DNA of 35,925 nt, taken from NCBI GenBank assembly GCA_016212885.1, contig JACRDO010000174.1, positions 1 to 35,925 on the forward strand. The letters are read 5' to 3'. This document shows, one piece after another, positions 14,593 to 35,826 of this stretch; positions within the stretch are counted from its first letter, which is position 1, and each line of letters begins with the position of its first letter. Below the pieces are notes generated by a model. The model did no database searches, was not told where the DNA came from, and saw only the letters and a list, made by a program, of their open reading frames with translations. The translations under genes were made by a program, and so were the position numbers. This DNA comes from Elusimicrobiota bacterium (lineage in GTDB: Bacteria > Elusimicrobiota > Elusimicrobia > UBA1565).

Positions 14593-14608
14593 GGTTGTGT
14601 CAATACAA
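14593..14608. repeat. Right copy of the 16-bp direct repeat flanking the ATPase gene
   Basis: GGTTGTGTCAATACAA. This copy covers the last two codons and the stop of the glycosyltransferase gene (stop at 14602-14600), so any insertion event used the 3' end of that gene as target. Confidence 0.75.
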
Positions 14609-21752: not shown

Positions 21753-23798
21753 TTACGACGGCAGGACGCGCGGCGTCACGAAGATCAGAAGCTCCACGCG
21801 CGAGCGCTCGACGGTCTTCTTCTTGAACAGCCAGCCGATCAGCGGGATGTCTCCCAAGAGCGGGACCTTCGCCACCGTATTGAGGACCGAGTCGGTGATG
21901 AGTCCGCCGATGACGATCGTCTCGCCGTCCTGCACCAGCACGGTCGTCTTGGCGGTGCGCATGTCCACGGCCGGGACCCCGACCACGGCGGAGGCGACCG
22001 TGCCGGAGGGCTGGCTGACGGTCGGGTTGACTTCGATGGTGATCCGGCCGTCCGCGTTGATCGTCGGCGTCACGTCGAGCTGGATGCCCGTCGTGATGTT
22101 GCTGACGGACTGGGACGTCACGCCGGTCGAAGCCACGTTCGACGTGGCGTAGGGGATCTGGGTCGTGATGTTGATGCTCGCCTTTTTCCCGTTGAGCGTG
22201 GCGATCTTCGGGTCCGAGAGGACCTTGACCTTCCCTTGGGAGGCGGCCGCGGTCAGGGTGGCCGACAGGAAGTAGTTGTTCGTCACGCGGCCGAAAGTGA
22301 AGGCGCCGAAGACCTTCGAGGCCGGCAGGAACACGCCGGTCCCGCGGCCCCCCGCGCCGATGGCTCCTCCGCTAGAGCTGACGCCGGGAACCTTCATCTC
22401 GTTCTGGTCGAGAGGGAGGCCGAAGGGATCTTTGCTGGGGAATATGGGCGACCCTATAGTGTGAAGCCCCTGCTTTCCCAGCGCCTGGCCTGAGTCGATT
22501 CCGAAATAGTCCCACTGGATGCCGAAGTTGAGGTCCTTGGTCAGCTTGACCTCCACGAGCTTCGCCTCGATCATCACCTGCTGGGGCCTCACGTCGAGCT
22601 TCGCCAGAAGGCGCTCGACCTTCGCGATGCCTTCGAGCGTGTCGGTCACGATCAGCGAGTTCGTGTTGTCGTCGCTGTTCAACGCCCCGCCGCGGTTTTC
22701 GGCCGCGCGGACGGCCGCCACGGCCGCCTTGATCTCAGACGCTTTGCTGTATTTCAGCTTGATGACCCGGGTTTCATTGACTGCCACCGCGCGCTCCTTC
22801 GCCAGAGTCGCCGGCGACATGACGCGCAGGATGTTTTCTCCGGCCTGGTCCGCGACCAGGCCGTTGATCTGCAGGACCGTCAGGAATATCTCATTGAAGG
22901 GGACTTCCGTCAGGCGCAGCGTCACCGGGCCGGAAACGTCGGCGCCGTAGATGATGTTGACTTTCGCCTTCTCGGAAAGGTAATGGAGCACGTCCCGGAT
23001 GTCGGTGCCCGGCCAGTCCACCGTGGTCGGTTCCGTGGGGAGCGAAGTCATGATGTCGCGCCGCGCGCGGCGCTCGAAGCCGGCGGACGACGCCGCGGCC
23101 GCGGCCTGGCGCGCGGGCTCGGATTCCCTCCCCCTATCCTTGGCCGCCGCATCCGAGGCCTCGGCCATGTCGGAGAGCTCCGAAGAATAGCCGGGGGACG
23201 CGGCGGCCTTCGCGGGCTTGGGCGGCGCAGGCGCTTGGACATTGGCCGGCTTTGCCGGCGGAGGAACCGGCGCCGGCTCTTCTTTCTCGACCGCCGGGGC
23301 CTTTGCGGCGGCGGGCCGCGCCGGCTCCGCTTTCTCGACGGCCGGAGCGGTCATTGCCGCGGGTTTCTCGGTTTCGGAGCCGGGCGCGCCGGCCAACTGG
23401 AGGCTGACGACCAGGTTGCGCCCTTCCCAGCGCGCTTGATACCCGACGGATCTGACCAGGTCCAGCACGATGCGGGAGATCATCGGCGGCTCCTTCTGGT
23501 ACTGCCCGGAGCGCACCTTCTTCAGATACCGTCCTTGGCCGGCCTGCGTCTTCGTCTCGGGCCGGTACTCGGTGTTCAACAGCTCCACCACGAGCCGCGG
23601 AGGATCCGCCGTGACGAAAGTGTTGTACTTGACGCCCGGCCGGCTCAGAAGCAGGGTGACCCGATCCGGCCCCACTTCCACGCCGTCGAGTGTCGCGCTG
23701 TCCGGGGATGGTTCCGCGGCCCAAAGCCAGGCGGTCCCCCCCGGAGAGCTCAACAGAAGCGACGCGGCAAGCCAGAGAGCGAAGAGACGCTTCAGCAT
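21753..23798 (-). CDS. pilQ: Type IV pilus secretin PilQ
   Basis: 681 residues from this start. A signal peptide (MLKRLFALWLAASLLLSS) leads into an AMIN domain (about 33-135) that binds peptidoglycan. A Pro/Ala/Lys-rich linker follows (140-250), then the N0/STN domain (about 258-330), an N1 secretin_N domain (343-405, with DDNTNSLIVTDT) and the secretin barrel (405 to the end, with VPLLGDIPLIGWLFKKK and VELLIFVTPRVL). It forms the outer-membrane gated channel of the pilus. The start at 23798 is preferred because GGAGGGG lies 2 bases before it and the signal peptide begins there; an ATG at 23825 overlapping the pilP stop is the alternative. Extra length against short secretins comes from the linker. 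Confidence 0.95.
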   Translation of the reverse strand: MLKRLFALWLAASLLLSSPGGTAWLWAAEPSPDSATLDGVEVGPDRVTLLLSRPGVKYNTFVTADPPRLVVELLNTEYRPETKTQAGQGRYLKKVRSGQYQKEPPMISRIVLDLVRSVGYQARWEGRNLVVSLQLAGAPGSETEKPAAMTAPAVEKAEPARPAAAKAPAVEKEEPAPVPPPAKPANVQAPAPPKPAKAAASPGYSSELSDMAEASDAAAKDRGRESEPARQAAAAASSAGFERRARRDIMTSLPTEPTTVDWPGTDIRDVLHYLSEKAKVNIIYGADVSGPVTLRLTEVPFNEIFLTVLQINGLVADQAGENILRVMSPATLAKERAVAVNETRVIKLKYSKASEIKAAVAAVRAAENRGGALNSDDNTNSLIVTDTLEGIAKVERLLAKLDVRPQQVMIEAKLVEVKLTKDLNFGIQWDYFGIDSGQALGKQGLHTIGSPIFPSKDPFGLPLDQNEMKVPGVSSSGGAIGAGGRGTGVFLPASKVFGAFTFGRVTNNYFLSATLTAAASQGKVKVLSDPKIATLNGKKASINITTQIPYATSNVASTGVTSQSVSNITTGIQLDVTPTINADGRITIEVNPTVSQPSGTVASAVVGVPAVDMRTAKTTVLVQDGETIVIGGLITDSVLNTVAKVPLLGDIPLIGWLFKKKTVERSRVELLIFVTPRVLPS

Positions 23799-23821
23799 TT
23801 CCCCTCCAAACCCGCGAAAGA

Positions 23822-24403
23822 TCATGGCGATTTCTTCACGGCTTCCCCGCCCTCATCCTCGCCGAGGATGAGGATCTGGACGTCCTTGTCCGGAGTCATC
23901 AGGGTCACCGACGAAACGGCCGGTTTCTGCTTGAGCTGGATGGAGCCGGCGACACCCTCGACGCGCTTGTTCTTGTAGTCGTAAAGCCGGCCGTTGCGAA
24001 GGACGAATCCTTCCCCCGTCTTGACGTGCACGAGGATCGCGGCCGCGCCCCTGGGATCCTTCATGACGCCTTTCAGGTTGAGCGAATGGATCGAGAACGC
24101 CGGCTCATCCTCCTCGCCTCCATCCTCCACTTCCTCTCCCTTGGCCGCGGAGGCCCGCAGGGTCTCGATCTGCGCGGCCGCGGGGCTCTCGCCTGTGACC
24201 GCGGCGAACGGATCGCGGTATTTCGCGCCGTTGTAGAGGTCGCTGACCGTCACCTGGCGCTCGGCGCTGGTCGAAGCCTCGACGCTGGGCAAGGTCGACG
24301 TGGACCTGGCCATTTGGGCCTGAGCGCCCTGCGCCGCAGACGCAGCCCGGGCGGGCGCCGGCGCAAGCGCCCACAGCAGCAGGATGGCGGCGATGGTTCT
24401 CAT
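23822..24403 (-). CDS. pilP: PilP-like type IV pilus alignment protein
   Basis: 193 residues. A signal peptide (MRTIAAILLLWALAPAPARA) carries no lipobox cysteine, so unlike many PilP proteins it is probably not a lipoprotein. An acidic disordered middle (EEVEDGGEEDE) is followed by a small beta-domain from about 105 to 180, with SLNLKGVMKDPRGAAAILV, GEGFVLRNGRLYD and VSSVTLM. This matches the PilP pattern of an L-x-L-x-G strand, a G-x-x-x-x-x-x-G turn and a final I/V strand. PilP links the PilN-PilO inner-membrane complex to the N0 domain of PilQ. It lies between pilO and pilQ, the usual place, and sequence similarity is modest, so the call leans on position. Confidence 0.8.
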   Translation of the reverse strand: MRTIAAILLLWALAPAPARAASAAQGAQAQMARSTSTLPSVEASTSAERQVTVSDLYNGAKYRDPFAAVTGESPAAAQIETLRASAAKGEEVEDGGEEDEPAFSIHSLNLKGVMKDPRGAAAILVHVKTGEGFVLRNGRLYDYKNKRVEGVAGSIQLKQKPAVSSVTLMTPDKDVQILILGEDEGGEAVKKSP

Positions 24404-24419
24404 CCTCGTCTCACCCCAA

Positions 24420-24968
24420 TCATAATTGTTTGTACGAGATCAGCGTAAAGTTCACCGACATCCTCCCCTCCGACTCGGGCGTATAGACGACGCTCCGCAC
24501 ATTATAGATGCGCTCCTCGAGGGCGATGGCCGCCAGAAAGCGGCCGATGTCGTGGAAGCGGCCCCGCACCGAGATCGAGTATGGGACCTCGATGAAATAG
24601 GGCCGGTTCGTCATGCCCGCCGGCGCGAACGACCTCAGCTCCACGCTGTTCTTGCGCGCGAGGACGCTGATGGCCGTGATGACCGCGGGCAGATCCCTGG
24701 CCTTCGGCAGGCGCTTCTCGGCCTCGGCGGCCTGCTCGTTGAGGGTTTCGATCTCCTTCTGGATCTTCGGCAGGCGCACGGCCTGGCTCTTGGCCTTGTT
24801 GATCTTGCCCTCGGTCTCCGTGATCTGCTTCTGCGTGTCCTGGATCTTCTTCGATGTGGGCAGCCAGAAATATTTGATGTAGGCGAAGCCTCCGCCGAAG
24901 ACGATCAGCGCGCCCAAGCCGATCGCCTGCTGCTGCTGCTTCGTGAGCTGGATGTTCAGCTTCGCCAT
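24420..24968 (-). CDS. pilO: Type IV pilus inner-membrane alignment protein PilO
   Basis: 182 residues. A short cytoplasmic N-terminus precedes a single membrane helix (about 16-34, IGLGALIVFGGGFAYIKYF). A coiled-coil segment follows (about 40-90, SKKIQDTQKQITETEGKINK and onward), then a ferredoxin-like periplasmic domain (about 95-182, ending with IYNVRSVVYTPESEGRMSVN). This is the normal PilO plan and length. PilO pairs with PilN and connects the cytoplasmic PilM to PilP and the secretin. It starts 6 bases after the pilN stop, in a continuous operon. Confidence 0.92.
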   Translation of the reverse strand: MAKLNIQLTKQQQQAIGLGALIVFGGGFAYIKYFWLPTSKKIQDTQKQITETEGKINKAKSQAVRLPKIQKEIETLNEQAAEAEKRLPKARDLPAVITAISVLARKNSVELRSFAPAGMTNRPYFIEVPYSISVRGRFHDIGRFLAAIALEERIYNVRSVVYTPESEGRMSVNFTLISYKQL

Positions 24969-24974
24969 GGCTCA

Positions 24975-25532
24975 TTACCCCGCAGGGGGCACGTACTTGA
25001 CCGTCAGATTGAACACGCTCTCCCTGGATGTCACCCCGCCGACGGTGATGGGCCCGGCGAGGACCGGGTCCTTGAAGCGGTCGGAGCCCTCGAATATCTT
25101 CAATACCGCGGCCGCGTCCTCGCTGGACACCCCCTTGCAGGCCATGACGAGCGCCAAGCCCTTCTCGTCGCCGGTGGTCGACAAGCTCGTGAGCCAGACC
25201 CCGGGAGGCAGGGTCTTCACCAGATCCTCCATGAAGCGTGGGTAGAGGGCCCGGTACCTCATGAGGCCCCCGACCACCTCCAGCCGGGCCTTGACCGTCT
25301 TGGCGATCTCCTCGAGCGCGGTGACCTGATCCACGATCTTCTTGAGCCGGTCGAGCTCGACGATGTCCGCGGCCAGCGTCTTCTGCAGAGAAACGCTGCG
25401 CCAGTAGTGATGGGCGGAGACCGAAGCGAGTATGACGGCCACGACCGCGGCCCCGGCCGCGCCCTGGATGGCCCGCTGGCGCGAGACCTCCTTGTCGAGG
25501 ATTTCCTGGGGGACGAGATTGATCTTGATCAT
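24975..25532 (-). CDS. pilN: Type IV pilus inner-membrane alignment protein PilN
   Basis: 185 residues. It begins MIKINLVPQEILDKE, the conserved cytoplasmic tail of PilN (IN-L-x-P) that inserts into a groove of PilM. A membrane helix follows at about 25-43 (AAGAAVVAVILASVSAHHY), then a coiled coil and a periplasmic ferredoxin-like domain with MEDLVKTLPPGVWLTSLST, which is a family signature. Gaps to pilM and pilO are 7 and 6 bases. Confidence 0.94.
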   Translation of the reverse strand: MIKINLVPQEILDKEVSRQRAIQGAAGAAVVAVILASVSAHHYWRSVSLQKTLAADIVELDRLKKIVDQVTALEEIAKTVKARLEVVGGLMRYRALYPRFMEDLVKTLPPGVWLTSLSTTGDEKGLALVMACKGVSSEDAAAVLKIFEGSDRFKDPVLAGPITVGGVTSRESVFNLTVKYVPPAG

Positions 25533-25539
25533 AGGCGCA

Positions 25540-26691
25540 TCACACCCAGTCTTTGGGCCTGCGCAGAGCGAGCCCGGCCGCCACGCCGAAACTCGGCAGG
25601 ATCTCGGCCGGGATCTCCGCGGGCTGGCCGAGGAAGCCCAGCGGATTGAGCTGGCTGACGGGAACCTTGAGCTCCCCGGTCAGGTGCTTGGCCAGGTTCT
25701 TCATCCGGGCGGAGCCTCCCGCCAGCACGATGCGCGCGACCGAGCGCTCAGGCCCCTGCGAAAGGTAGAAATCGACCGACCGATGGACCTCGGCGACGAG
25801 GTCCTTCATGACGCCCGTGACCGCCTGGGAGACCGCCAGCGCGTCGCGGTTGCCCTCCGCGAGGGCCTTCTCCTTCTCCCCCTGGTCGAGCAGAAGCCCG
25901 AAGGATTTCTTCGCCTCCTCGGCTTTCGCGGCGTCGCACTGCAAGGCCTTCATGGCCGCCTTCGTGAAAGTGGCGCCGGCGATGAAGATGTCGCGGACCA
26001 CGCGCGTGACGCCCGCCTCGATGATCGAGAGGTTGGTCGTCGTGTGGCCGATATTCAAATAGAGCGTCGAACCCCCCCGCTCCTGTCCGGAATCCGTCCG
26101 CTCGTGCACCCCCTCGAGGGCGAACGAGTCCACGTCGATGATCGCCGGCCGCAGCCCCACGGCCTCCAGCACCTCCACGCGCGCCTGCACCATGTCCTTC
26201 TTGGAGGCGACCAGGACCGTCTCCATCTTCTTCTGGCCTTCCTCCATGACCTCGCTGAGGATGTGGAAGCTGAGCTGGACGTCCTTGATGTCGAACGGGA
26301 TGAACGGCTCGGCCTCCGAGGCGAGCGTCTCGCGCAGCTCGCTCTTCGTCAGGAGCGGGAACTTGACGTAGCGGACGATGACGGAGTTGCCAGAGATCGC
26401 GGTCGCGGCGCGCTTGACCGGGAGAGCCTTCTGGATCAGGAAAGCGCGAAGCTGGTTGATCGACTGCTGCCTGCGCTCGTCCGGAGCCGCGTCCGCCTTC
26501 GATTCGATGGGCAGATGCCCCCAGGTCTTCAACCGCATCTGGCCCCCTTCTTCTTTGAGCCAGACGACCTTGATGGCGTAGCTGCCGATGTCGATGCCGA
26601 GGATGTCCTGCGGCCCGAGGAACATCGAACCGAGTTTTTCCTTGACCTGCTTGAGGTCAAAGGCCTTCAGCTTGTCTGTGATCCCTGCCAT
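25540..26691 (-). CDS. pilM: Type IV pilus actin-like ATPase PilM
   Basis: 383 residues. The actin/FtsA-like fold is shown by a phosphate-1 loop DILGIDIGSYAIKVVWL near the N-terminus, a GSTLYLNIGHTTTNLSII phosphate-2 segment, and an ARIVLAGGSARMKNLA adenosine motif near the C-terminus. The family-typical LRETLASEAEPFIPF stretch follows the first lobe. Cytoplasmic PilM binds ATP and the PilN tail, forming the inner ring of the pilus machine. First gene of the pilMNOPQ operon; pilA, pilB, pilC and pilT are not in the window. AGAGG precedes the ATG by 2 bases. Confidence 0.95.
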   Translation of the reverse strand: MAGITDKLKAFDLKQVKEKLGSMFLGPQDILGIDIGSYAIKVVWLKEEGGQMRLKTWGHLPIESKADAAPDERRQQSINQLRAFLIQKALPVKRAATAISGNSVIVRYVKFPLLTKSELRETLASEAEPFIPFDIKDVQLSFHILSEVMEEGQKKMETVLVASKKDMVQARVEVLEAVGLRPAIIDVDSFALEGVHERTDSGQERGGSTLYLNIGHTTTNLSIIEAGVTRVVRDIFIAGATFTKAAMKALQCDAAKAEEAKKSFGLLLDQGEKEKALAEGNRDALAVSQAVTGVMKDLVAEVHRSVDFYLSQGPERSVARIVLAGGSARMKNLAKHLTGELKVPVSQLNPLGFLGQPAEIPAEILPSFGVAAGLALRRPKDWV

Positions 26692-26918: not shown

Positions 26919-27596
26919 GTGCTGAAGGCCGTGCTCTTTGACTACGGCGGCACGCTGGATTCGGACGGAATTCCCTGGCTCGACCGCTTCTATCCGATCT
27001 ATCAGGGAGCGGGTCTAAGAGCCTCCTGGGAGGACTTCCGGACAGCGTTTTATGACTCGGATGACCGCCTTCCGGAACGTTTCCGGCTGGACGGCTTGGA
27101 CCTCGAGCGGACGGTCCAGCGCCAGGTCGGCTGCGTGGCGCAGCGCCTGGCTCCGGGCCGAGCCGACCTGCCCCAAGCCGTAGTTCGCCGGTTCGTGGAC
27201 TCCTCCCGCGAGCAGCTCAGGCGCAACCGCCCTCTGCTGGAGCGCCTGCGCCGCCGCTTCCTCCTCGGAATCGTCTCCAACTTCTACGGGAATCTCGAAG
27301 CGATCCTCGAAGCCGAAGGCTGGCTGGAGCTTTTCGGCGTCGTGGCCGACTCCGCGCGGGTCGGCTGCGCGAAGCCCGACAGGGAGATATTCGCCTATGC
27401 CGCACGAAAGCTCGGAACCCCGCTGGAGGAGACCTTGATGGTGGGAGACTCTCTTGAGCGCGATATGCGCGGGGCCGAGGCAGTTGGGATGCCGCACGCG
27501 TGGCTCGCAGGCGGCCGCGCGCACGCGCGGCCCTGCTGCCCCGGGACACCTATGCTGCGCACGCTTCTTGACTTGGAGGCCGCGCTCCCGCCATGA
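26919..27596 (+). CDS. HAD-superfamily phosphatase
   Basis: 225 residues from GTG. Motif I is FDYGGTL (nucleophile Asp at residue 8; the second acid of the usual DxD is replaced by Gly, as in several HAD subgroups). Motif II is GIVSNFYG, motif III the Lys in GCAKPDREIF, and motif IV VGDSLERDM. The helical cap between motifs I and II marks subclass C1. It would remove phosphate from a small phosphoester. In this operon, with inositol-phosphate synthase and a CDP-alcohol phosphotransferase, an inositol-phosphate or phosphatidyl-inositol-phosphate type substrate is plausible but not shown. The GTG was chosen because the conserved motif follows seven residues later; no ribosome-binding site precedes it. 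Its stop overlaps the next ATG as ATGA. Confidence 0.88.
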   Translation: MLKAVLFDYGGTLDSDGIPWLDRFYPIYQGAGLRASWEDFRTAFYDSDDRLPERFRLDGLDLERTVQRQVGCVAQRLAPGRADLPQAVVRRFVDSSREQLRRNRPLLERLRRRFLLGIVSNFYGNLEAILEAEGWLELFGVVADSARVGCAKPDREIFAYAARKLGTPLEETLMVGDSLERDMRGAEAVGMPHAWLAGGRAHARPCCPGTPMLRTLLDLEAALPP

Positions 27597-28327
27597 CCTC
27601 CCTGCGCCATGGCGGCATCATCGCGGCCGGCGAAGGCTCCCGGATGGCTTCGCGCTATCCGGGCATGCCCAAGCCCCTGGTGCGTGTGGGCGGGAAGCCT
27701 CTCATCGGCTGGGTGGCGCTTGCGCTGCGGGCCGCCGGGATCCGCCGGCTGCTCGTGCTCCTGAACTCGCGCGGAGGCGCGGTGAGGGACTACCTGCGCA
27801 GCTCCGCGGGCCGCGTGCCGGGCTTGGAAGTATCGTTTTTAAGGCGGGATACGGACTCCTCCTGGGAGAGCTTCCGGCTCCTCAGCCGGACCCTCGCCCG
27901 CAGGTCGAGCCGATTCCTGCTGAGCGCCGCGGACACGGTCGTTTCGCCGGCGGACGCAGCCCGGTTCGCCAAAGAGGCCTTCCGGCCGCTTCGGGGAGCC
28001 CCCCCGGCAGCGGCGCTCGGCCTGACGCGCTTCGTCGACGACGAGAAGCCTCTTTGGGCCCAGCTCGGGCCCGGCGGCCTCGTCACGGCATTGGGCCCCG
28101 GCGCCCGGCGCGGGGAGGCGGTCACCTGCGGCCTCTATGCCCTGAGCGCGAAGACCGCGGCCAGGATGCCGCCGGAGCGCGCCTACGGGCGCCTGCGGGA
28201 TTTCTGGACGAGCCTCGTCCGGTCAGGCGAAGCCGTGCGCGGCGTCCTGCTGGCCGACGCCGTGGACGTGGACCGTCCCGAAGACGTGGCTGTCGCGGAA
28301 AGGAAACTAGGATGCTCCGCTGCTTAG
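27593..28327 (+). CDS. Sugar-phosphate-type nucleotidyltransferase
   Basis: 244 residues. The N-terminal GGIIAAGEGSRM and KPLVRVGGKPLIGW are the intact nucleotide-binding signature (G-x-x-x-AAG-x-G-x-R and P-K-P-L) of the NTP_transferase/IspD/MobA-like fold. SRFLLSAADTVV gives the metal-binding Asp, and the C-terminal VLLADAVDVDRPEDVAVAE matches the end of sugar-1-phosphate cytidylyl- or uridylyltransferases. It would activate a phosphorylated alcohol with CTP or another NTP. Because the fusion protein later in the operon has lost these motifs, this protein probably provides the activated precursor, for instance a CDP-inositol type compound (inference). ATG overlaps the HAD stop as ATGA. Confidence 0.87.
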   Translation: MTSLRHGGIIAAGEGSRMASRYPGMPKPLVRVGGKPLIGWVALALRAAGIRRLLVLLNSRGGAVRDYLRSSAGRVPGLEVSFLRRDTDSSWESFRLLSRTLARRSSRFLLSAADTVVSPADAARFAKEAFRPLRGAPPAAALGLTRFVDDEKPLWAQLGPGGLVTALGPGARRGEAVTCGLYALSAKTAARMPPERAYGRLRDFWTSLVRSGEAVRGVLLADAVDVDRPEDVAVAERKLGCSAA

Positions 28328-29157
28328 GCATTTTGCGCGAAGTGCAGAACTCCCCCAGCCGGGAGACGGACGACGCGATGATACTCGACGCGGTCCTCGA
28401 ACAGCTCCGCAACCTCGGCGTGCGGACCGAGCGAATCACGCCGGAAGAGGCGGACCGCGGCGATCTCTCCGGCTTCGACCTGGTGCTGGCGATGTGCGAG
28501 ACCTGTCCCCGGATCAAGCGGCTCTCGGCCCTGGCCGAGCGCTCCCGGGCGATCTGGGCCAATGCGCCGCAATCCGTGCTCAATTGCTATCGGCTGAATA
28601 TGATCGAGGCCCTGGCCGGAAGGGACGGCATCCGCTTCCCGCGCTCGGAGCTGCGCCGGGTCCAAGACGGGGCCGGCCGCGCGCCTTTCGAGGCCGGCGG
28701 CTATTGGGTCAAGCGGGGCGACGTCCACAACACCTGCGACCATGACGTCGTCTTCCTGAGCTCCTGGTCTAAGGCCGCCCGGGTCATCAAGGACTTCGAC
28801 GAGCGCGAGATCGGGCATTATGTGGTCCAGCCGCATATCGACGGGGACATCATCAAGTTCTACGGCGTGGGCCCGGGCCGCTGGTTCACCTGGTTCCACC
28901 ATGACCCGACGCGCGCTCGCCGCACCCCCTTCCTCGTCGGCGAGCTCGCCCGGACGGCCGCCTGCGGCGCCGGCGCGCTCGGCCTCGAGATCTTCGGAGG
29001 GGACGCGATCGTGTCGCCGGACGGGGCCCTCACGCTCCTGGACATGAACTCCTGGCCGAGCTTCGCGCGCGTCCGGCGCGAGGCCGCCCTCCAGATCGCC
29101 TGGCACCTTCAGACGCGGTGGGCCGCGAGACGGCCCGCCGCACGGAGAAAAAGATGA
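28312..29157 (+). CDS. ATP-grasp enzyme (RimK- or inositol-kinase-like)
   Basis: 281 residues. After an N-terminal pre-ATP-grasp domain (ILDAVLEQLRNLG, LAMCETCPRI, ANAPQSVLNCY), the ATP-grasp core shows YWVKRGDVH (ATP-binding Lys), HYVVQPHIDGDIIKFYGVG, and a metal/phosphate end DAIVSPDGALTLLDMNSWP (D-x-x-x-D-x-N). The Q-x-x-I-x-G-x-x-x-K-x-Y-x-V-G run is shared by RimK-type ligases and by inositol-tris/tetrakisphosphate kinases. Possible reactions are ligation of an amino acid to an amine or phosphorylation of an inositol; the sequence alone cannot decide. The start at 28312 has AGGA just before it and overlaps the nucleotidyltransferase end by 16 bases. The stop overlaps the aminotransferase ATG. 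Confidence 0.8.
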   Translation: MLRCLGILREVQNSPSRETDDAMILDAVLEQLRNLGVRTERITPEEADRGDLSGFDLVLAMCETCPRIKRLSALAERSRAIWANAPQSVLNCYRLNMIEALAGRDGIRFPRSELRRVQDGAGRAPFEAGGYWVKRGDVHNTCDHDVVFLSSWSKAARVIKDFDEREIGHYVVQPHIDGDIIKFYGVGPGRWFTWFHHDPTRARRTPFLVGELARTAACGAGALGLEIFGGDAIVSPDGALTLLDMNSWPSFARVRREAALQIAWHLQTRWAARRPAARRKR

Positions 29158-30500
29158 AAACAGCCGCCGAAATCCCGGCCGCCTGGCGCTCAGGCCCGAT
29201 CTCGCGCAAGCTCTTCCTGGAGGAGCAGGCCACCATGACGCCCGGCCTCCAGCAGATCGCCGTCTTCTCCGAGCTCGTCATGGAGCGCGGCGAGCGCGCC
29301 ACGCTCTATGACGCAGACGGCCGCTCCTATCTCGACTTCGTGGCGGGCGTCTGCGTGGCCTCCATCGGGCACGGCCACCCGGAGTACGCCCGGGCCCTCT
29401 CGGAGCAGGCGGCCAGGCTCTGCGTCGGCAGCTTCACGACGAAGAACCGCGTCGAGTTCCTCAGGCGCCTCGTGAAGCTCACCCCCAAGGGCTTAGACCG
29501 CGTCCAGCTCTACTCCAGCGGCGCCGAGGCGGTGGAGGCCGCGATCCGGCTCGCCAAGAGCCACACCAAGAACTTCGAGGTCATTTCCTTCTGGGGCGGC
29601 TTCCACGGCAAGACGGGCGGGGTGCTGGGCCTGCTCGGCAGCGACTTCAAGCACCAGCTCGGGCCCATCCACCCGGGCCTCTACCTGACGCCCTATCCCA
29701 ACCCCTACCGCAACCCCTTCGGGATCTCGGACCCGGCCGAGCTCAGCGCGCGCTGCCTCCAGTTCCTGCGCGAGAAGATCAAGGTGGAGACCTCCGGCAG
29801 TCTCGCCGCGATCATCCTCGAGCCCATCCAGGGCACGGCCGGCAACGTCATCCCGCCGCCGGGGTTCTTGAAGGGCGCGCTGGACATCGCGCACGAGCAT
29901 GGGGCGATCCTCATCTCCGACGAGATGATCACCGCCTTCGGACGGACGGGCTATTGGTTCGGGGTCCAGCACGATGGCGTGATCCCCGACATCATGACCA
30001 TCGGCAAGGGAGTGGCCGGGGGCTTTCCGGTCAGCGGCATCGTCACGACGTCCGAGATCGCCAAAGCCAAGCCTTTCGCCAATCCGAGCGGCTCTTCCTC
30101 CAGCTACGGCGGCAACCCCCTCGCGGCCGCGGCCTGCAACGCGGCCCTGCGCATCGTGGAGAGCGAGAACCTCCTCGAGAACTCCAAGCGGGTCGGCTCC
30201 GCGATGCTGGAGCGCCTCCGGAAAATCCAGGAGCGCTTCCGCTTCATCGGCGACGTGCGCGGCCGCGGCCTCATGATCGGGGTGGAATTCGTCGAGGACC
30301 GCGCGAGCAGGAAGCCTCTGCGCAAGGAAGCCTGCAGGGCCATATTCGACGAAGCGCTCAAGCGGGGCCTGCTCACCATGTCCTACTCGCCGGCCCTGCG
30401 CATCAATCCGCCGCTGAACATCACCCAGGCCGAAGCCCTGCGCGGACTCGACATCCTCGCGGAAGCGCTGGAAGCCGTTTCCCGGAGGTTCGGGCTCTGA
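29154..30500 (+). CDS. Class III PLP-dependent aminotransferase
   Basis: 448 residues, normal for the family. SGAEAVEAAIRLAK forms the phosphate-binding part, ISDEMITAFGRTG contains Asp256 that pairs with the pyridine nitrogen, and TIGKGVAGGFPVSG contains Lys285, the Schiff-base lysine. The C-terminal domain includes GDVRGRGLMIGVEF and LRINPPLNIT. Family members move amino groups to aldehydes or ketones, as in 4-aminobutyrate, ornithine or dialkylglycine metabolism. Next to a sugar/cyclitol-type dehydrogenase it may aminate an oxidised product, but this is inference. The start at 29154 was chosen for the ATGA overlap with the ATP-grasp gene and the GGAG 7 bases upstream. Confidence 0.92.
   Translation: MKTAAEIPAAWRSGPISRKLFLEEQATMTPGLQQIAVFSELVMERGERATLYDADGRSYLDFVAGVCVASIGHGHPEYARALSEQAARLCVGSFTTKNRVEFLRRLVKLTPKGLDRVQLYSSGAEAVEAAIRLAKSHTKNFEVISFWGGFHGKTGGVLGLLGSDFKHQLGPIHPGLYLTPYPNPYRNPFGISDPAELSARCLQFLREKIKVETSGSLAAIILEPIQGTAGNVIPPPGFLKGALDIAHEHGAILISDEMITAFGRTGYWFGVQHDGVIPDIMTIGKGVAGGFPVSGIVTTSEIAKAKPFANPSGSSSSYGGNPLAAAACNAALRIVESENLLENSKRVGSAMLERLRKIQERFRFIGDVRGRGLMIGVEFVEDRASRKPLRKEACRAIFDEALKRGLLTMSYSPALRINPPLNITQAEALRGLDILAEALEAVSRRFGL
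30484..30499 (+). promoter_or_regulatory. Ribosome-binding site supporting a CTG start
   Basis: GGAGG at 30484-30488 lies inside the aminotransferase 3' end, 8 bases before CTG (30497-30499). No common start codon is in frame near the beginning of the oxidoreductase domain, so this site argues for initiation at CTG coupled to termination at the overlapping TGA. Confidence 0.6.
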
Positions 30501-31522
30501 GCAAAGCTCTGCAGGGCGCCATCATCGGCTTCGGGGTTGTCGCGCAGGACGCGCATGCGCCGGCCTTCGCCCGCGCGGAGGGCTTCGAGATCGCCGCGGT
30601 CGCGGACTCTAGCTCCAAGCGCCTGGCGGCCGCGCGCAAGATTTTCCCCAACGCCCGGATCTATCCCTCCGCCCGGAAGCTCTACGCCGCCGAAAAGCTC
30701 GATTTCGTTGACATCGCAACGCCGCCCCACCTGCACGCCGAGCTGTGCCTGGAGGCGCTTCGCAGACGCCTGCACGTGCTCTGCGAAAAGCCCCTCGTCT
30801 TCACGCGGGGAGAATTCGAGGCTCTCCGGGCGCAAGCCCAGCGGCAGAAGCGGGCCCTGTTCCCGGTCCACAACTGGAAGTACGCCCCGGCCCTTTCCAA
30901 GCTGCACGCGCTCCTGCGCGCCGGCTCAATCGGCGAGCTCCGCCACATCGAACTGCACGTGCTGAGGTCGAAGCCCGCGGCCGCCTCCGGCCTCGGGAGC
31001 GGCTCCAATTGGCGCTTGGACCGGAGCCGGGCCGGAGGCGGCATCCTGGTGGACCACGGCTGGCACAACATCTACCTGCTCATGTGGCTCTCGGGCGCCG
31101 CTCCCGTTGACATGCAGGCGGTCCTTCAGACCGCCTCCAACGGCCTGTGCGACGAGGAAGCGGCCTGCCTGCTGCGCTTCCCACGCGCCAGCGCCTTGAT
31201 GTATCTGAGCTGGCGCTCCCCACGGCGCGCCCAATGGGGAGTGGCCTACGGGCGCTGCGGCTCCATCGAGCTCTTAGACGACCGGCTCATCCTCTCCCGC
31301 AACAGCGGCGCCCAGACCTTCCGGTTCCCGCAGAAGCTCTCCGCGGGGTCCGCCCACCCCGAGTGGTTCGCGGCGATGCTGCCGGACTTCCGGGCCGCCA
31401 TCGCCCGTCCGGCCTCCGGCCTGGAGTTCCTGGAGGAGGCCGGGGCCTGCGCCGCGCTCATCGAGCGGGCCTACCGCGCCGCGGAAGCTCCCCGCGCGAA
31501 ATGCGCGCAATGGGCAACGTGA
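30497..31522 (+). CDS. Gfo/Idh/MocA-family NAD(P)-dependent oxidoreductase
   Basis: 341 residues. An N-terminal Rossmann domain has GAIIGFGVVAQDAH (GxGxxA variant), then AVADSSSKRL, and the family signature CEKPL with catalytic Lys98. The C-terminal domain carries ILVDHGWHNIYLL, the conserved D-x-x-x-H. Enzymes of this family oxidise a hydroxyl of sugars or inositols to a ketone (for example inositol 2-dehydrogenase). No ATG, GTG or TTG lies near the domain start. The most likely start is CTG at 30497, overlapping the aminotransferase stop as CTGA and with GGAGG (30484-30488) 8 bases upstream. Its own stop overlaps the next gene's GTG. Confidence 0.88.
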   Translation: MSKALQGAIIGFGVVAQDAHAPAFARAEGFEIAAVADSSSKRLAAARKIFPNARIYPSARKLYAAEKLDFVDIATPPHLHAELCLEALRRRLHVLCEKPLVFTRGEFEALRAQAQRQKRALFPVHNWKYAPALSKLHALLRAGSIGELRHIELHVLRSKPAAASGLGSGSNWRLDRSRAGGGILVDHGWHNIYLLMWLSGAAPVDMQAVLQTASNGLCDEEAACLLRFPRASALMYLSWRSPRRAQWGVAYGRCGSIELLDDRLILSRNSGAQTFRFPQKLSAGSAHPEWFAAMLPDFRAAIARPASGLEFLEEAGACAALIERAYRAAEAPRAKCAQWAT

Positions 31523-32670
31523 GCATGGACGGCGTCCTGCTGGTCAACCATCCCGCCTACATGATGGAGCGCCTCGCCGGCCTCACGCTCATCGAGCGCC
31601 AGGTATTCACCCTGGCGCGCGCGGGCCTCAGGCGGGTCTGGATCGCGGCCCACAAGCCCTCAGGCGCCCGCTTCAAGGCTCTGCGCTGGCCGCAGGACAT
31701 CGAGGTTGTCTGGACATCCGAGACGAGATCTTTCCCCGCGGCGCCGCATGTCTCCATATCCGCCGATTACCTCATCCGGCCCGCGGCGCTGCGCGAGGTC
31801 CTCGCCACCCGGCACGAGCAGCCGACGGCCTACCACGACTCCGCCGGGCGCGGCGTGATCCAGATTATGCTCTCCCGCGGCGAGGAGGCGCCTTCCTTCG
31901 AGAAGCGCGCCCTGCCCGATGGCTCCTGCCTCTTGATCCAGACGCCCTTGGAGAGCGGGCCCGCCCTGCCGTGGGTCCTGCGCGAGGCCGTAAAATCCCA
32001 CGACAGCTTCATGGCGCGCCACTTCGACCGGCGCATCTCCCTGGCCATCACCCGCCGCCTGCTCGACACCCGCCTCACCCCCAACCAGATGACGGCGCTC
32101 AGCACGCTTGTCGGCGTGGCCGGGGCCCTCCTGACCCTGGGGGGGCCCGCGGCCATGACCGCGGGCGTCCTGCTCGTCTGGGCCCACACGGTCCTCGACG
32201 GCTGCGACGGCGAGATGGCGCGGCTGCGCTTCGAGTCGAGCCGCATCGGCGGCATCCTCGATTTTTGGGGCGACAACGTGGTCCACGCGGCCCTGTTCCT
32301 GTGCCTCGGCATCGGCGCCTGGCGCCAGGGCCGCTCGGCCGTCTATCCCCTGCTGGGCCTGCTGGCGGCGACCGGCGCGGCCTTAGCGGCCCTGTCGGTC
32401 TACCGCCATTCGCAGATGCGCCGCACGCGCCACGGCCCGCTCTTCAACGGCTTGGGGGGCCTGGCGTCCGAGAAGTCCTCCCGGGCCGTCCGCAACCTGG
32501 CCCTCATCGAGGACGCGCTCTCGCGCAGGGACTTCGTCTACCTGCTGGTGGCCCTGGTCCTGATCGGCCATCCGGAGATATTCCTGTGGGCCGCGGGGAT
32601 CGGCATGCCATTGTTTTTATCCGCGCTGCTGTACCTTCGGAACCTGGAGAATAGGAGTCTTCCCCAATGA
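31519..32670 (+). CDS. Degenerate nucleotidyltransferase fused to CDP-alcohol phosphatidyltransferase
   Basis: About 383 residues. The N-terminal ~190 residues align in plan with sugar-phosphate nucleotidyltransferases (LAGLTLIERQVFTLARAGLR resembles the PLIERTL-x-x-LARAG segment), but the glycine-rich AAG-x-G-x-R motif is missing. The C-terminal half is a membrane CDP-alcohol phosphatidyltransferase with the full signature D-x2-DG-x2-AR-x8-G-x3-D-x3-D (about residues 227-249) and several membrane helices. This layout resembles the archaeal fusion making CDP-inositol and di-inositol-phosphate phosphate. Here the first half is probably inactive. The start is uncertain: GTG at 31519 overlaps the previous stop as GTGA; ATGs at 31501, 31510 and 31525 are alternatives with no clear ribosome-binding site. 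Confidence 0.87.
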   Translation: MSMDGVLLVNHPAYMMERLAGLTLIERQVFTLARAGLRRVWIAAHKPSGARFKALRWPQDIEVVWTSETRSFPAAPHVSISADYLIRPAALREVLATRHEQPTAYHDSAGRGVIQIMLSRGEEAPSFEKRALPDGSCLLIQTPLESGPALPWVLREAVKSHDSFMARHFDRRISLAITRRLLDTRLTPNQMTALSTLVGVAGALLTLGGPAAMTAGVLLVWAHTVLDGCDGEMARLRFESSRIGGILDFWGDNVVHAALFLCLGIGAWRQGRSAVYPLLGLLAATGAALAALSVYRHSQMRRTRHGPLFNGLGGLASEKSSRAVRNLALIEDALSRRDFVYLLVALVLIGHPEIFLWAAGIGMPLFLSALLYLRNLENRSLPQ

Positions 32671-34058
32671 ACGCAGCCCGAACGATCGCACCCTGCCGCG
32701 GCCGGCTGGGCGTTCTCCTGCCGGGCATGGGGGCCGTGACAAGCACCTTCATCGCCGGCGTGGAGCTCCACAAGAAGCGCTTGGGCTCGCTCATCGGCTC
32801 CTTGACGCAGCTGCAGACCATCCGCCTCGGCAAGCGCTACGAGCGCCGCCGGCCCCTGATCCGGGACTTCGTCCCGCTCGCGAAGGTCTCGGACCTCGTC
32901 TTCGGAGGCTGGGACATCTTCCCGGATTCCATCTACCAGACGGCGCTCAAAGCCGCGGTCCTGCCCGAGGAGCGCCTGCGCCCGGTGAGGCGCGAGCTCG
33001 AAGGCATCGTCCCGATGCCGGCTGTCTTCGACCGCGCCTTCGTGCGCAACCTCGACGGGCCCAACGTCAAGAAGGCCAAGACGAAATGGGACCTCGCCCA
33101 GAAGCTCGTTGGCGACATCGAAGCCTTCAAGGACCGCGGCAGCCTCGACCGCGCCGTCATGATCTGGTGCGGCTCGACCGAGATCCTGCCCAAGCGCTCC
33201 AATGTCCACGAGAGCCTCGCCGAGTTCGAGAAAGGCCTCAAGAGGAACTCGCCCGACATCCCGCCGTCCATGATCTACGCCTACGCGGCCCTGCGCCTCG
33301 GGCTGCCCTACGCCAACGGGGCCCCGAACCTCTCCGCCGACGTGCCGGCGCTCGTCGAGCTCGCCCAGCGGACCGGCTCCCCCATCGCCGGCAAGGACTT
33401 CAAGACCGGGCAGACCTTCATGAAGACCGTCGTCGCTCCCGCCCTGCAGGCCCGCATGCTCGGCCTGATCGGGTGGTACTCCACGAACATCCTGGGCAAC
33501 CGCGACGGCGAGGTCTTAGACGATCCCGGCTCTTTCAAGACGAAGGAGAAGAGCAAGATGTCGGTGCTGGACTCGATCCTCGAGCCGGAGATCTACCCGG
33601 CCCTTTACGGGAAATACTCCCACAAGGTCCGCATCGACTACTACCCGCCCCGGGGCGACAACAAGGAGGGCTGGGACAACATCGACATCGCCGGCTGGCT
33701 CGGCATGCCGATGCAGATCAAGATCAACTTCCTCTGCCGCGATTCGATCCTGGCCGCCCCCATGGTCCTGGACCTCGCCTTGTTCCTGGATTTCGCCAAG
33801 CGCGCGGGCCTCAAGGGCATCCAGGAGTGGCTCTCCTTCTACTTCAAGTCCCCGATGTGCCGCGAGGACCTGACCCCGGAGCACAACCTGTTCCTCCAGC
33901 ACCTGAAGCTCAAGAACACCCTGCGCATCCTCCTGGGCGCGGAGGTCTTAGACCACTCCGGGCTGGACTACTACGACCCCCTCCGCGGCGCCCCCTCCCC
34001 GGCGCCGCCGCCCAAGCCATCGAAGGCCGCGAGAGCCCTCGCTTCCTCAAAAGCCTGA
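32667..34058 (+). CDS. ino1: Inositol-phosphate synthase (Ino1 family)
   Basis: 463 residues. Family signatures visible are an N-terminal nucleotide-binding LGVLLPGMGAVTSTF, FGGWDIFPDS, SMIYAYAALRLGLPYANGAPN, the catalytic GKDFKTGQTFMKT (Lys243 and Lys246), GWYSTNILGNRDG with DDP-x-SFKTKEKSK after it, and SHKVRIDYYPPRGDNKEGWDNI. These are the NAD- and glucose-6-phosphate-binding motifs of 1L-myo-inositol-1-phosphate synthase, which converts glucose 6-phosphate to inositol phosphate. The C-terminal ~25 residues (PAPPPKPSKAARALASSKA) are low complexity. AGGAG lies about 11 bases upstream, and the ATG overlaps the previous stop as ATGA. It sets the chemistry of the operon: an inositol phosphate is made here. 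Confidence 0.95.
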   Translation: MNAARTIAPCRGRLGVLLPGMGAVTSTFIAGVELHKKRLGSLIGSLTQLQTIRLGKRYERRRPLIRDFVPLAKVSDLVFGGWDIFPDSIYQTALKAAVLPEERLRPVRRELEGIVPMPAVFDRAFVRNLDGPNVKKAKTKWDLAQKLVGDIEAFKDRGSLDRAVMIWCGSTEILPKRSNVHESLAEFEKGLKRNSPDIPPSMIYAYAALRLGLPYANGAPNLSADVPALVELAQRTGSPIAGKDFKTGQTFMKTVVAPALQARMLGLIGWYSTNILGNRDGEVLDDPGSFKTKEKSKMSVLDSILEPEIYPALYGKYSHKVRIDYYPPRGDNKEGWDNIDIAGWLGMPMQIKINFLCRDSILAAPMVLDLALFLDFAKRAGLKGIQEWLSFYFKSPMCREDLTPEHNLFLQHLKLKNTLRILLGAEVLDHSGLDYYDPLRGAPSPAPPPKPSKAARALASSKA

Positions 34059-34059
34059 G

Positions 34060-34575
34060 ATGGCCATCGTCCGGGGCGAGAAGCCCGAGGAAGAGCAAGC
34101 GGTCGGAGACCTGCTCCGGCGCGTATACGGCCGCGACGACGAGGCCCTGCTGGTCGCTTCGCTGAGGAAGTCGCCGGAATTCCTGCCCCAGATGTCCGTC
34201 GTGGCCGAAGACAACGATACGCTGGCCGGCTACGCCCTATTCTTGAAGGTCGCCATCGTGGCGGGAGAAGCCAAGCACCCCGCGCTCGCCCTGGTCCTTA
34301 TGGCCATTACGCCGGAATTCAAGAGCGCCGGCGTGGCGGAGCGGCTGATCCGGACCAGCGTGGAGCGCTGCCGGGGCCTGGGCCTCAAATTCATCTTCGT
34401 CGTCGGGAAGCCCCGGCAGTTCGCGAAATTCGGGTTCGAGGAAGCCTCCGGCCTGGGGCTGGAGCCGGAGTTTCCACTGGCAAGCGGCTCCCTCCAGGTC
34501 CTGGACATGAGGCAGGGCCAGAAAGCCATGGTCAAAGCCAAGGTGCGCTACCCGGAGAGCGTGAGGCCGCAGTAA
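34060..34575 (+). CDS. GNAT-family N-acetyltransferase (YhbS-like)
   Basis: 171 residues. The pattern is that of YhbS-type GNAT proteins: an N-terminal DLLRRVYGRDDEALLVASLR helix pair, a central beta-sheet LVLMAITPEF, a degenerate acetyl-CoA pyrophosphate loop KSAGVAERLIR in place of the usual Q/R-x-x-G-x-G/A, and VVGKPRQFAKFGFEEASG near the end. It would acetylate an amine. One base separates its ATG from the ino1 stop, so it is the last gene of the coupled operon; with an aminotransferase upstream, an amino-sugar or amino-cyclitol substrate is plausible (inference). YhbS-like proteins also occur alone, so a bystander role is possible. Confidence 0.8.
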   Translation: MAIVRGEKPEEEQAVGDLLRRVYGRDDEALLVASLRKSPEFLPQMSVVAEDNDTLAGYALFLKVAIVAGEAKHPALALVLMAITPEFKSAGVAERLIRTSVERCRGLGLKFIFVVGKPRQFAKFGFEEASGLGLEPEFPLASGSLQVLDMRQGQKAMVKAKVRYPESVRPQ

Positions 34576-34658: not shown

Positions 34659-34976
34659 CTACGCGTGCTTCAACCGCAAGCCTTTAGGCCTGTAATCGAT
34701 GCGGAGCTCCATGCCCAAAGCGCGCCCGATCTTCTGCAGGATGGCGACAGTCGTATTCTGTTCTCCGGCTTCGATCCTGGATATGGCTTGCTGACTTGAA
34801 TGGATCATCCGGGCGAGTTCCGCCTGGGTCAGCTTGGCCGCGATCCTGGCCTTCATGACTGCCTGGGCCGCCATCCATTCGGCCCGGGCCTCATGATAAT
34901 GTCCTCTGATCTCGGAATCCCGAAGCTCTTCTCTGAGGAATTCCTTCAAGCGGATGCCTTTCACTTTCGCCCTCAT
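34659..34976 (-). CDS. XRE-type HTH antitoxin of a HigBA-like pair
   Basis: 105 residues. A basic N-terminal segment (MRAKVKGIRLKEFLREELRD) precedes a helix-turn-helix XRE domain (about 45-100): KLTQAELARMIHSSQQAISRIEAG, then ILQKIGRALGMELRI. Such antitoxins bind both the toxin and the operator. The start at 34976 was chosen because its ATG overlaps the toxin stop as ATGA, with GGGGA 5 bases upstream. A longer form from 35000 would overlap the toxin gene by 28 bases and looks unlikely. Toxin-first order is typical of HigBA. Confidence 0.87.
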   Translation of the reverse strand: MRAKVKGIRLKEFLREELRDSEIRGHYHEARAEWMAAQAVMKARIAAKLTQAELARMIHSSQQAISRIEAGEQNTTVAILQKIGRALGMELRIDYRPKGLRLKHA

Positions 34977-35341
34977 CGATTTCCCCTCTGATTTCCCCAT
35001 TCAAGCCTCGCCTTCTTGGCTTCAATTATCTCCGCTTCAGGAACCCTGTCCGATTTCTTGAGGAAAGCGTTTGTCGCCACAATGAACTCATGATCGAAGA
35101 AGAACAGGATCCGATGCTGCTGCCTATCCACAATGACCCGCAGCTCATAGATCCCATCGCCAAGATGGCCTACGGTCGGCCGACCCAGCTTAACTCCCTG
35201 CTCATCGAGCACTTCGAGCAGCCAGCCGGCATGGCCCCGGACTTTCTTGCTCTGGCCTCGAAGATAGTCACGGACCGGGCAATCCCCCCTGCGGCCCTCA
35301 AAGAAGACAAGCCCATGCTCTTCGAAGATAGGATACATCAT
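34973..35341 (-). CDS. RelE/HigB (Gp49)-family toxin
   Basis: 122 residues. The pattern is that of the phage Gp49/HigB group: GDCPVRDYLRG near the N-terminus, LLEVLDEQGVKLGRPTVGHL, then GIYELRVIVDRQQHRILFFF and NAFLKKSDRVPEAEIIEAKK with the C-terminal A-x-x-R helix. These toxins cleave mRNA on the ribosome, the basic residues of the last strands being involved. It is paired with the XRE antitoxin gene by an ATGA overlap. Start: two ATG codons in a row at the 5' end; a TTGACA hexamer lies 12 bases upstream, so the true start may be slightly further in. Confidence 0.87.
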   Translation of the reverse strand: MMYPIFEEHGLVFFEGRRGDCPVRDYLRGQSKKVRGHAGWLLEVLDEQGVKLGRPTVGHLGDGIYELRVIVDRQQHRILFFFDHEFIVATNAFLKKSDRVPEAEIIEAKKARLEWGNQRGNR

Positions 35342-35352
35342 ATACGATGTTC

Positions 35353-35400
35353 TGTCAAGAACTCCGGATGGGTCGCCATACTATGTAATACGAGTATGGC
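35353..35400. promoter_or_regulatory. Upstream region of the toxin-antitoxin pair: -35-like hexamer and perfect inverted repeat
   Basis: On the minus strand TTGACA (35358-35353) precedes the toxin gene. Further upstream GCCATACT (35375-35382) and AGTATGGC (35393-35400) are exact 8-bp inverted copies with a 10-base spacer. An operator for the XRE antitoxin would be expected here. No good -10 at the right distance lies before the annotated start. Confidence 0.4.
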
Positions 35401-35550
35401 CCGATTTAGTTCCCTTCCCCTATTATTGGCCTGCGGATCGGATTTCCGCATCACTGCCGCGGAAATTGTCATTCGACGAGGCGGCGGCTGGGCAACAACC
35501 ATTTTTTGCTAACATATCGCAATTGCGACGGGAAAAATCGCGGGGAAGTT
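35401..35550. other. Intergenic stretch with two perfect palindromes
   Basis: ATTTCCGC (35442-35449) and GCGGAAAT (35459-35466) form a perfect 8-bp stem with a 9-base loop. TCGCAATTGCGA (35517-35528) is a perfect 12-bp palindrome about 22 bases before the DUF2442 start and is a candidate operator. No gene is visible in the stretch; it is much less GC-rich than the core of the window. Confidence 0.45.
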
Positions 35551-35826
35551 ATGGGGACGGCGGAAAAAGTTCTGAAAATCATCAAAGCCGAGCATCTGGG
35601 CGATCACGTGTTGAAACTTTTATTCTCAGATGGAACGGAGCGCGAAATCGATTTCAAACCGTTCCTTGAACGCTCGCGTCATCCGGAAATCAGGAAATTT
35701 CTAAGCCTGCGACGCTTCAAGCGAATCTCCCTTCAAAACGGCGAGCTTATGTGGGGAGACTTCGACTTGATTTTTCCTATTATCGACCTCTATTATAACC
35801 TACATTTCGGGGCTTTTAGTCACTAG
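35551..35826 (+). CDS. DUF2442-domain protein
   Basis: 91 residues from ATG at 35551. The pattern HVLKLLFSDGTEREIDFKPFL, then SLRRFKRISLQNGELMWG, then DLIFPIIDLYYN matches DUF2442, a small domain of unknown function (V-x-x-x-x-L-x-F-DG-x-x-x-x-D, then W, then a short L-Y end). The start at 35551 has GGGGA 5 bases upstream; a longer form from 35506 would add 15 residues without a ribosome-binding site. DUF2442 genes often follow a DUF4160 gene in a proposed toxin-antitoxin-like arrangement; that partner is absent upstream. Confidence 0.75.
   Translation: MGTAEKVLKIIKAEHLGDHVLKLLFSDGTEREIDFKPFLERSRHPEIRKFLSLRRFKRISLQNGELMWGDFDLIFPIIDLYYNLHFGAFSH

Follow-up and report, generated by a model that had tools for sequence, protein, structure and literature searches.

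A conserved operon in Elusimicrobiota and other phyla that may attach an inosamine head group to a membrane lipid

How might a bacterium use an operon that joins myo-inositol-1-phosphate synthase (Ino1) to enzymes of oxidation, amination and CDP-alcohol chemistry? The question is raised by eight genes at positions 26919-34575 on the forward strand of contig JACRDO010000174.1 (35,925 nucleotides, analysed at full length and called the window here) from an Elusimicrobiota bacterium (assembly GCA_016212885.1; 174 contigs, 3.83 Mb). They encode a HAD phosphatase, a nucleotidyltransferase (NTase), an ATP-grasp enzyme, a class III aminotransferase (AT3), a Gfo/Idh/MocA oxidoreductase (Gfo), a CDP-alcohol phosphotransferase (CDP-AP), Ino1 and a GNAT acetyltransferase (Table 1). 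An earlier note on the window had proposed that the operon makes an amino-cyclitol, destined for a new lipid head group or a compatible solute. Our data show that this is a real conserved biosynthetic operon. We estimate a probability of roughly 0.55 that it builds an inosamine and attaches it via a phosphodiester to an acceptor that is most likely a membrane lipid; we infer all substrates and products, the order of steps, the role of ATP-grasp as a kinase and the lipid acceptor from family membership and genomic context.

Conservation of the locus was surveyed by tblastn with the eight proteins on relatives' loci, followed by a scan of genome contigs for the ATP-grasp family, which reached Rokubacteria, Methylomirabilis, Hydrogenedentota, Deltaproteobacteria and one Nitrospirae-labelled bin. 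Among the 53 loci with enough flank, on which all order counts rest, 46 keep the order HAD-NTase-ATP-grasp-AT3-Gfo, which rules out chance clustering, and 44 have these five genes plus CDP-AP in order; AT3, Gfo and ATP-grasp are the genes most constantly retained. As judged by tblastn, the complete order up to Ino1 is seen in many genera of relatives and, with variations, throughout the class. The order is shared by Elusimicrobiota, Rokubacteria, Methylomirabilis and Deltaproteobacteria, and recurs in Hydrogenedentota with the NTase gene not adjacent. Thus, gene order is kept across phyla, and its loss outside this genome, which the earlier note had named as grounds for rejecting its proposal, is not what we found. 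The expectation that all eight genes keep their order holds for seven of them, whereas, among the loci surveyed, no family but that of the host has GNAT close to the operon. The conserved unit is seven genes, and GNAT, ruled out as a core gene, is a host-family extra.

Departures from this arrangement were also recorded. In genera g2-g4 of the host family, Ino1 resides elsewhere in the genome and not beside the operon. In two loci (L103:2525-6775 and L105:8001-11032), open reading frames (ORFs) of the universal-stress and dienelactone-hydrolase types, recognized by eye, replace AT3 and Gfo between ATP-grasp and CDP-AP; we treat these variants as rearranged copies or assembly effects. A deltaproteobacterial genome (L150) was considered as a case without AT3 and CDP-AP, which was ruled out, as orthologues of both lie together on a different contig from the ATP-grasp cluster. 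A CopD-family protein is encoded after CDP-AP in the Rokubacteria loci L134, L135, L137, L139, L141, L143, L144, L146, L148 and L154.

The eight families and their coordinates were confirmed, as was the tight coupling of the genes. Pfam and NCBIfam models identified seven of the eight proteins (P0001-P0008), the exception being the ATP-grasp protein P0003, which stays below all cut-offs. Overlaps of 4 bases connect HAD with NTase, ATP-grasp with AT3, AT3 with Gfo, Gfo with CDP-AP (whose GTG start lies at 31519) and CDP-AP with Ino1; NTase and ATP-grasp overlap by 16 bases, and 1 base separates Ino1 from GNAT. The single forward-strand promoter-like site before or within the operon is located upstream of the HAD gene, and an operon scan found no terminator-like sites on this strand. 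The Gfo gene has no ATG, GTG or TTG near its start; a CTG at 30497-30499 sits eight bases past GGAGG, a good Shine-Dalgarno motif, and recurs at the putative Gfo start in a sister genome (L032:9799-9801; two species of one genus). Translation of Gfo appears to begin at this CTG.

What ties the operon to inositol phosphate? Ino1, which would convert glucose 6-phosphate to inositol phosphate, carries NAD_binding_5 and Inos-1-P_synth domains with the conserved lysines and motif residues expected of a family member. Its closest solved Ino1 is the inositol-3-phosphate synthase 7nwr (449 aa; 2.5e-152), which we take to be BT_1526 of B. thetaiotaomicron. Across 147 genomes, the ATP-grasp enzyme was detected in 62 (one borderline match excluded) and Ino1 in 64; 58 genomes have both, 4 ATP-grasp alone, 6 Ino1 alone and 79 neither, and the corresponding numbers of genera are 32 with both, 1 and 4 with a single one and 23 with neither. 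The Fisher p values of 7e-29 by genome and 1.6e-11 by genus are inflated by relatedness; even so, presence and absence of the two genes go together. In L150, the Ino1 gene of the cluster (8845-9945) encodes a mycothiol-type enzyme that is non-orthologous to the operon Ino1 (TIGR03450, 8e-130), and the in-cluster homologue of a Rokubacteria locus (L138:4239-5294) is 53% identical to it. In both loci the eukaryote-like Ino1 has apparently been replaced by a mycothiol-type analogue. We consider this non-orthologous replacement the strongest evidence that inositol phosphate would be the pathway substrate.

The next question is whether the cyclitol is aminated. The PLP-binding Lys285 and Asp256 of AT3 and the EKP Lys98, Asp186 and His190 of Gfo are invariant in the locus alignments, and the expected catalytic residues of AT3, Gfo, NTase, CDP-AP and Ino1 are kept in nearly all loci. 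At the family level, the operon combines Ino1 and a phosphatase with an aminotransferase and a dehydrogenase of the Gfo/Idh type, the set proposed for the first steps towards the aminocyclitol of hygromycin A (PMC10949010). Moreover, inositol dehydrogenase and the aminotransferase MosB convert inositol to scyllo-inosamine in vitro (PMC6668481). Both precedents, hygromycin A and IolG/IdhA with MosB, share with the pathway proposed here the oxidation of inositol followed by transamination to an inosamine; unlike that pathway, they feed an antibiotic or rhizopines and involve no CDP-activated phosphodiester. Gfo matches the IolG model TIGR04380 with 3e-19, under the cut-off of that model, and scores alike against models of inositol dehydrogenase and UDP-GlcNAc 3-dehydrogenase. 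The latter similarity, and the fact that pairs of Gfo/Idh enzymes and aminotransferases are common in amino-sugar synthesis, would suit a scenario in which Gfo and AT3 make an amino sugar on a different carrier, with inositol serving CDP-AP solely as acceptor or anchor. We consider this quite improbable, given that the conserved unit yielded no identifiable glycosyltransferase and that ATP-grasp, Ino1 and Gfo directly adjoin in L150. Oxidation and transamination of an Ino1-derived cyclitol, followed by CDP-alcohol chemistry, as put forward in the earlier note, survived all tests of this analysis.

Among the remaining core enzymes, NTase is the proposed CTP:cyclitol-phosphate cytidylyltransferase. 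Its nucleotide loop is intact, with G13, G15, R17, K27, D114, D225 and D227 conserved. The domain fused to CDP-AP, in contrast, has no AAGxGxR nucleotide loop and is thus not the catalytic cytidylyltransferase fusion of the DIPP synthase pathway; it is probably dead, and the separate NTase would supply the activity. The CDP-AP signature DxxDGxxAR-x8-Gx3Dx3D (here DGCDGEMAR...G...D...D) is conserved in 85 of the 85 loci aligned there, and the AlphaFold (AF2) model displays six long membrane-type helices. This model is nearest to Af2299, which is also closest by profile (1.5e-37), followed by AfDIPPS (1.6e-21); by the same profile, the enzyme is closer to these two than to PIPS. The substrates of Af2299 and AfDIPP synthase are polar CDP-alcohols, and neither enzyme processes lipids (PMC4634129); kinship to such enzymes fits the presence of a separate NTase. 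As for HAD, residues D8, S120, N121, K152, D177 and D182 are conserved in the locus alignment but motif I has D-x-G; the enzyme is therefore a likely phosphatase, though not a certain one.

Whether the ATP-grasp enzyme is a kinase or a ligase decides how these parts would fit together. The AlphaFold model of P0003 (281 aa; pLDDT 89) matches ATP-grasp enzymes in the PDB, but its fold neighbours include both kinases and many ligases, and the choice therefore could not be made by fold. A relation to inositol phosphate kinases had been suspected by eye ahead of the profile test. Indeed, when PDB chains were searched with a profile of the Elusimicrobiota family, the top ranks went to plant ITPK4 and human ITPK1 (0.0025 and 0.008), whose aligned segment spans a D-x-N motif. 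The independent replicate built from other phyla ranks ligases first (7drm, an ATP-grasp-domain protein, 9e-6; RimK, 1e-4 to 2e-3; ITPK, 0.012), and single sequences are split in Pfam, some matching the ITPK model and others RimK, so that profile searches likewise failed to settle the choice and this part of the evidence speaks against a kinase. The gathering score of the ITPK model PF05770 is not reached (no match for P0003; best relative 0.0008), and 10 of 25 and 6 of 20 family members give weak matches. The D-x-N metal motif, however, is invariant in both ATP-grasp alignments, as in the aligned ITPKs, whereas both ligase-type proteins aligned to the other-phyla profile have E-x-N. ITPKs are also known from archaea (PMC8024741). 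On balance, the enzyme is somewhat more likely a kinase of the inositol-kinase-like type than a ligase. If it were a ligase, the phosphate might be retained: Gfo and AT3 would act on inositol phosphate, NTase would make the CDP derivative, ATP-grasp would couple the newly formed amine to an amino acid and HAD would take off a phosphate last. The ligases heading the other-phyla profile and abounding among the structural neighbours would agree with such a route, as would the phosphatase that closes phosphatidylinositol (PI) synthesis of the B. thetaiotaomicron (BT) type in the part of the literature considered, but the D-x-N motif and the ITPKs found first with the Elusimicrobiota profile make it unlikely. 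The idea of the earlier note that ATP-grasp and GNAT acylate or phosphorylate the aminocyclitol thus stands in part: phosphorylation by ATP-grasp is the somewhat more likely activity, and GNAT does not belong to the core.

With an inositol-kinase-like ATP-grasp enzyme, a pathway can be drawn in which HAD would strip the phosphate from the inositol phosphate made by Ino1, Gfo would oxidize inositol to an inosose, and AT3 would convert the ketone of the inosose to an amine, yielding inosamine. ATP-grasp would then phosphorylate inosamine, NTase would form CDP-inosamine, and the six-helix CDP-AP would move phospho-inosamine onto an acceptor to give a phosphodiester product; in the host family, N-acetylation of the amine by GNAT may follow. 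Once the aminocyclitol steps are extended in this way by a kinase, a cytidylyltransferase and CDP-AP, each gene has one role and the end product is a phospho-inosamine diester. Judged from gene families and context, an inosamine head group is the most likely product.

Several observations weigh against an inosamine attached to a lipid. The second aspartate of HAD motif I is replaced by glycine (D-x-G) in 85 of the 85 loci aligned there. Known aminocyclitol pathways mostly use aminotransferases of the DegT family. A search of 23 further genomes detected PF07994, the Ino1 family, in only 14, these assemblies being of unknown completeness. Two Elusimicrobiota families hold the remaining genes without a close CDP-AP; no close CDP-AP orthologue is present in L056, L057, L121 and the f15 genomes, and the genomes checked have only weak CDP-AP matches elsewhere. 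The operon CDP-AP has six helices and would suit a soluble acceptor equally well: six-helix CDP-APs have been described with soluble acceptors, and those with lipid acceptors carry extra C-terminal helices (PMC4634129). Finally, in close relatives of the host, no lipid-trafficking neighbours were found beside the operon.

Is the acceptor then a lipid or a soluble compound? Outside Elusimicrobiota (n=23 loci), the neighbourhood contains HpnL-like PF03706 proteins in 15 loci, HpnN-type RND transporters in 7, and MlaC/HpnM-like proteins in 5, while 2 loci have a squalene-hopene cyclase; L132 shows the arrangement cyclase, HpnL, HAD and L130 the arrangement HpnN, HpnL, HAD. In the window itself, a PF03706 gene (flippase-like/LPG synthase membrane region; 16743-17741, reverse strand) lies beside a glycosyltransferase gene (14600-16708), and Bacteroides inositol-lipid clusters are flanked by a lysylphosphatidylglycerol (LPG) synthase homologue, according to the part of PMC9246714 considered. 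Together, the HpnL, HpnN and MlaC neighbours, the Bacteroides homologue and the PF03706 gene of the window favour a lipid product over a compatible solute. A search for the HpnN family in relatives gave weak matches only, under the cut-off. Of 57 relatives, 50 encode hopene cyclase, and some of these 50 lack the operon; hopanoids would thus be available as acceptors without being tied to the operon, and the cyclase was ruled out as an operon partner. Alternatively, CDP-AP could use a soluble cyclitol phosphate as acceptor for CDP-inosamine or CDP-inositol, and HAD could then trim the terminal phosphate; the result would be an amino di-myo-inositol phosphate that serves as compatible solute. 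The closest solved relatives of CDP-AP, which process no lipids, and its six-helix architecture speak for such a product, but the lipid-trafficking neighbours in other phyla do not, and a solute of the thermophile type would be unexpected in the many carriers that are groundwater or soil bacteria according to their record titles. We therefore regard it as doubtful. Of the two destinations named in the earlier note, the lipid head group is favoured by the neighbours in other phyla and the solute less so.

How far does the operon go beyond known systems? Its core resembles a set of genes for Ino1, NTase, CDP-AP and HAD in B. vulgatus and Prevotella, which has been proposed to make alternative inositol lipids, with functions unconfirmed (PMC9246714, as far as that report was considered). 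At the family level, NTP transferase, CDP-AP, HAD and MIPS occur in one neighbourhood in both cases, with a CDP-inositol route predicted for the B. vulgatus type; unlike in the operon, no aminotransferase, Gfo/Idh or ATP-grasp enzyme is named there in the part considered. BT_1522-1526 of B. thetaiotaomicron likewise has an Ino1, taken above to be 7nwr, and a CDP-AP that makes a phosphodiester, but it proceeds through a PIP-DAG intermediate via PIP synthase and a PgpA-type phosphatase, and has neither NTase nor amination. The operon differs from this type in the affinity of its CDP-AP to Af2299/DIPPS rather than PIPS and in its HAD phosphatase. The di-inositol-phosphate pathway of archaea and thermophiles (IPS, IPCT-DIPPS; Af2299) has in common with the operon Ino1, CDP-polar-alcohol chemistry and the fusion of CDP-AP with a cytidylyltransferase-like domain; here, however, that domain has lost its nucleotide loop, a separate gene encodes the active NTase, and an amination module is added. 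A polar CDP donor has also been proposed for a lipid head group in Caulobacter, where CpgD forms CDP-glycerate for ceramide diphosphoglycerate (PMC12275187). CpgD matches the role proposed for the operon NTase as a cytidylyltransferase making such a donor and is structurally similar to inositol-1-phosphate cytidylyltransferase, but its system produces another head group and has no Ino1, Gfo/Idh or aminotransferase.

Could the locus simply be a cluster for ordinary PI with unrelated neighbours? Ino1, CDP-AP and a phosphatase would suffice for PI, yet no genes are retained more constantly than AT3, Gfo and ATP-grasp, and PI-like clusters of another family in the same class do without all three (L073: CDP-AP of ~200 aa, Ino1, PgpA and MMPL; L075: CDP-AP of ~200 aa, Ino1 and MMPL), which makes this explanation highly unlikely. 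What is new, among the papers searched, is the amination module on a PI-like core that resembles the B. vulgatus cluster, and the claim that Gfo, AT3 and ATP-grasp take the operon beyond known inositol clusters fits the part of PMC9246714 considered. In the literature searched, a module of aminotransferase, Gfo/Idh and ATP-grasp joined to an Ino1/NTase/CDP-AP/HAD core was not found, and searches on lipids with aminocyclitols, on inositol lipids of Elusimicrobia and on the polar lipids of Methylomirabilis gave no description of such a head group. Tentatively, and at somewhat less than even odds, the seven-gene operon with its inositol-kinase-like ATP-grasp enzyme may define a class of phospholipids or hopanoids whose head group is a CDP-activated aminocyclitol, made in a number of phyla, most of them uncultured, among which is Methylomirabilota. 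Bacteria rarely have inositol lipids, and the head group expected from the operon has a specific mass, for which environmental lipidomes can be searched, as can enrichments of Methylomirabilis, whose relatives carry the operon (L132, L145). If true, an orphan lipid would be tied to its organisms, and a bacterial inositol-kinase-like ATP-grasp enzyme may emerge.

Table 1. Genes of the operon, with positions in the window and supporting matches.
Product	Positions	Strand	Evidence
HAD-IA family phosphatase (P0001), GTG start	26919..27596	+	PF00702 5e-19; motif I D-x-G-G-T-L
NTase (P0002), proposed CTP:cyclitol-phosphate cytidylyltransferase	27593..28327	+	PF12804 2.5e-11; NF041135 (IPCT/DIPPS) 1.3e-5 over 9-236
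ATP-grasp enzyme (P0003), putative inosamine kinase, alternatively an amino-acid ligase	28312..29157	+	AlphaFold (AF2) pLDDT 89, ATP-grasp fold
Class III PLP aminotransferase AT3 (P0004)	29154..30500	+	PF00202 4.5e-100
Gfo/Idh/MocA oxidoreductase Gfo (P0005), proposed inositol dehydrogenase, CTG start	30497..31522	+	PF01408 1.3e-20, PF22725 8e-21
CDP-AP (P0006), fused N-terminal cytidylyltransferase-like domain	31519..32670	+	PF01066 1.4e-10; best model NF041135
Ino1, myo-inositol-1-phosphate synthase (P0007)	32667..34058	+	PF07994 2e-91, PF01658 2e-32
GNAT acetyltransferase (P0008), lineage-specific accessory	34060..34575	+	PF13527 2.5e-9

Other features of the window surround the operon. Secretin and PilM genes of the type IV pilus type (21753-26691, reverse strand) are divergent from it and recur upstream of it in many relatives. 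Downstream (34659-35826) lie helix-turn-helix and Gp49-like genes, which resemble a HigBA toxin-antitoxin pair, and a gene for a DUF2442 protein. At the far end of the window (227-13270, reverse strand), one ORF of 4347 aa encodes Kelch, right-handed beta-helix/NosD and fibronectin type III repeats.

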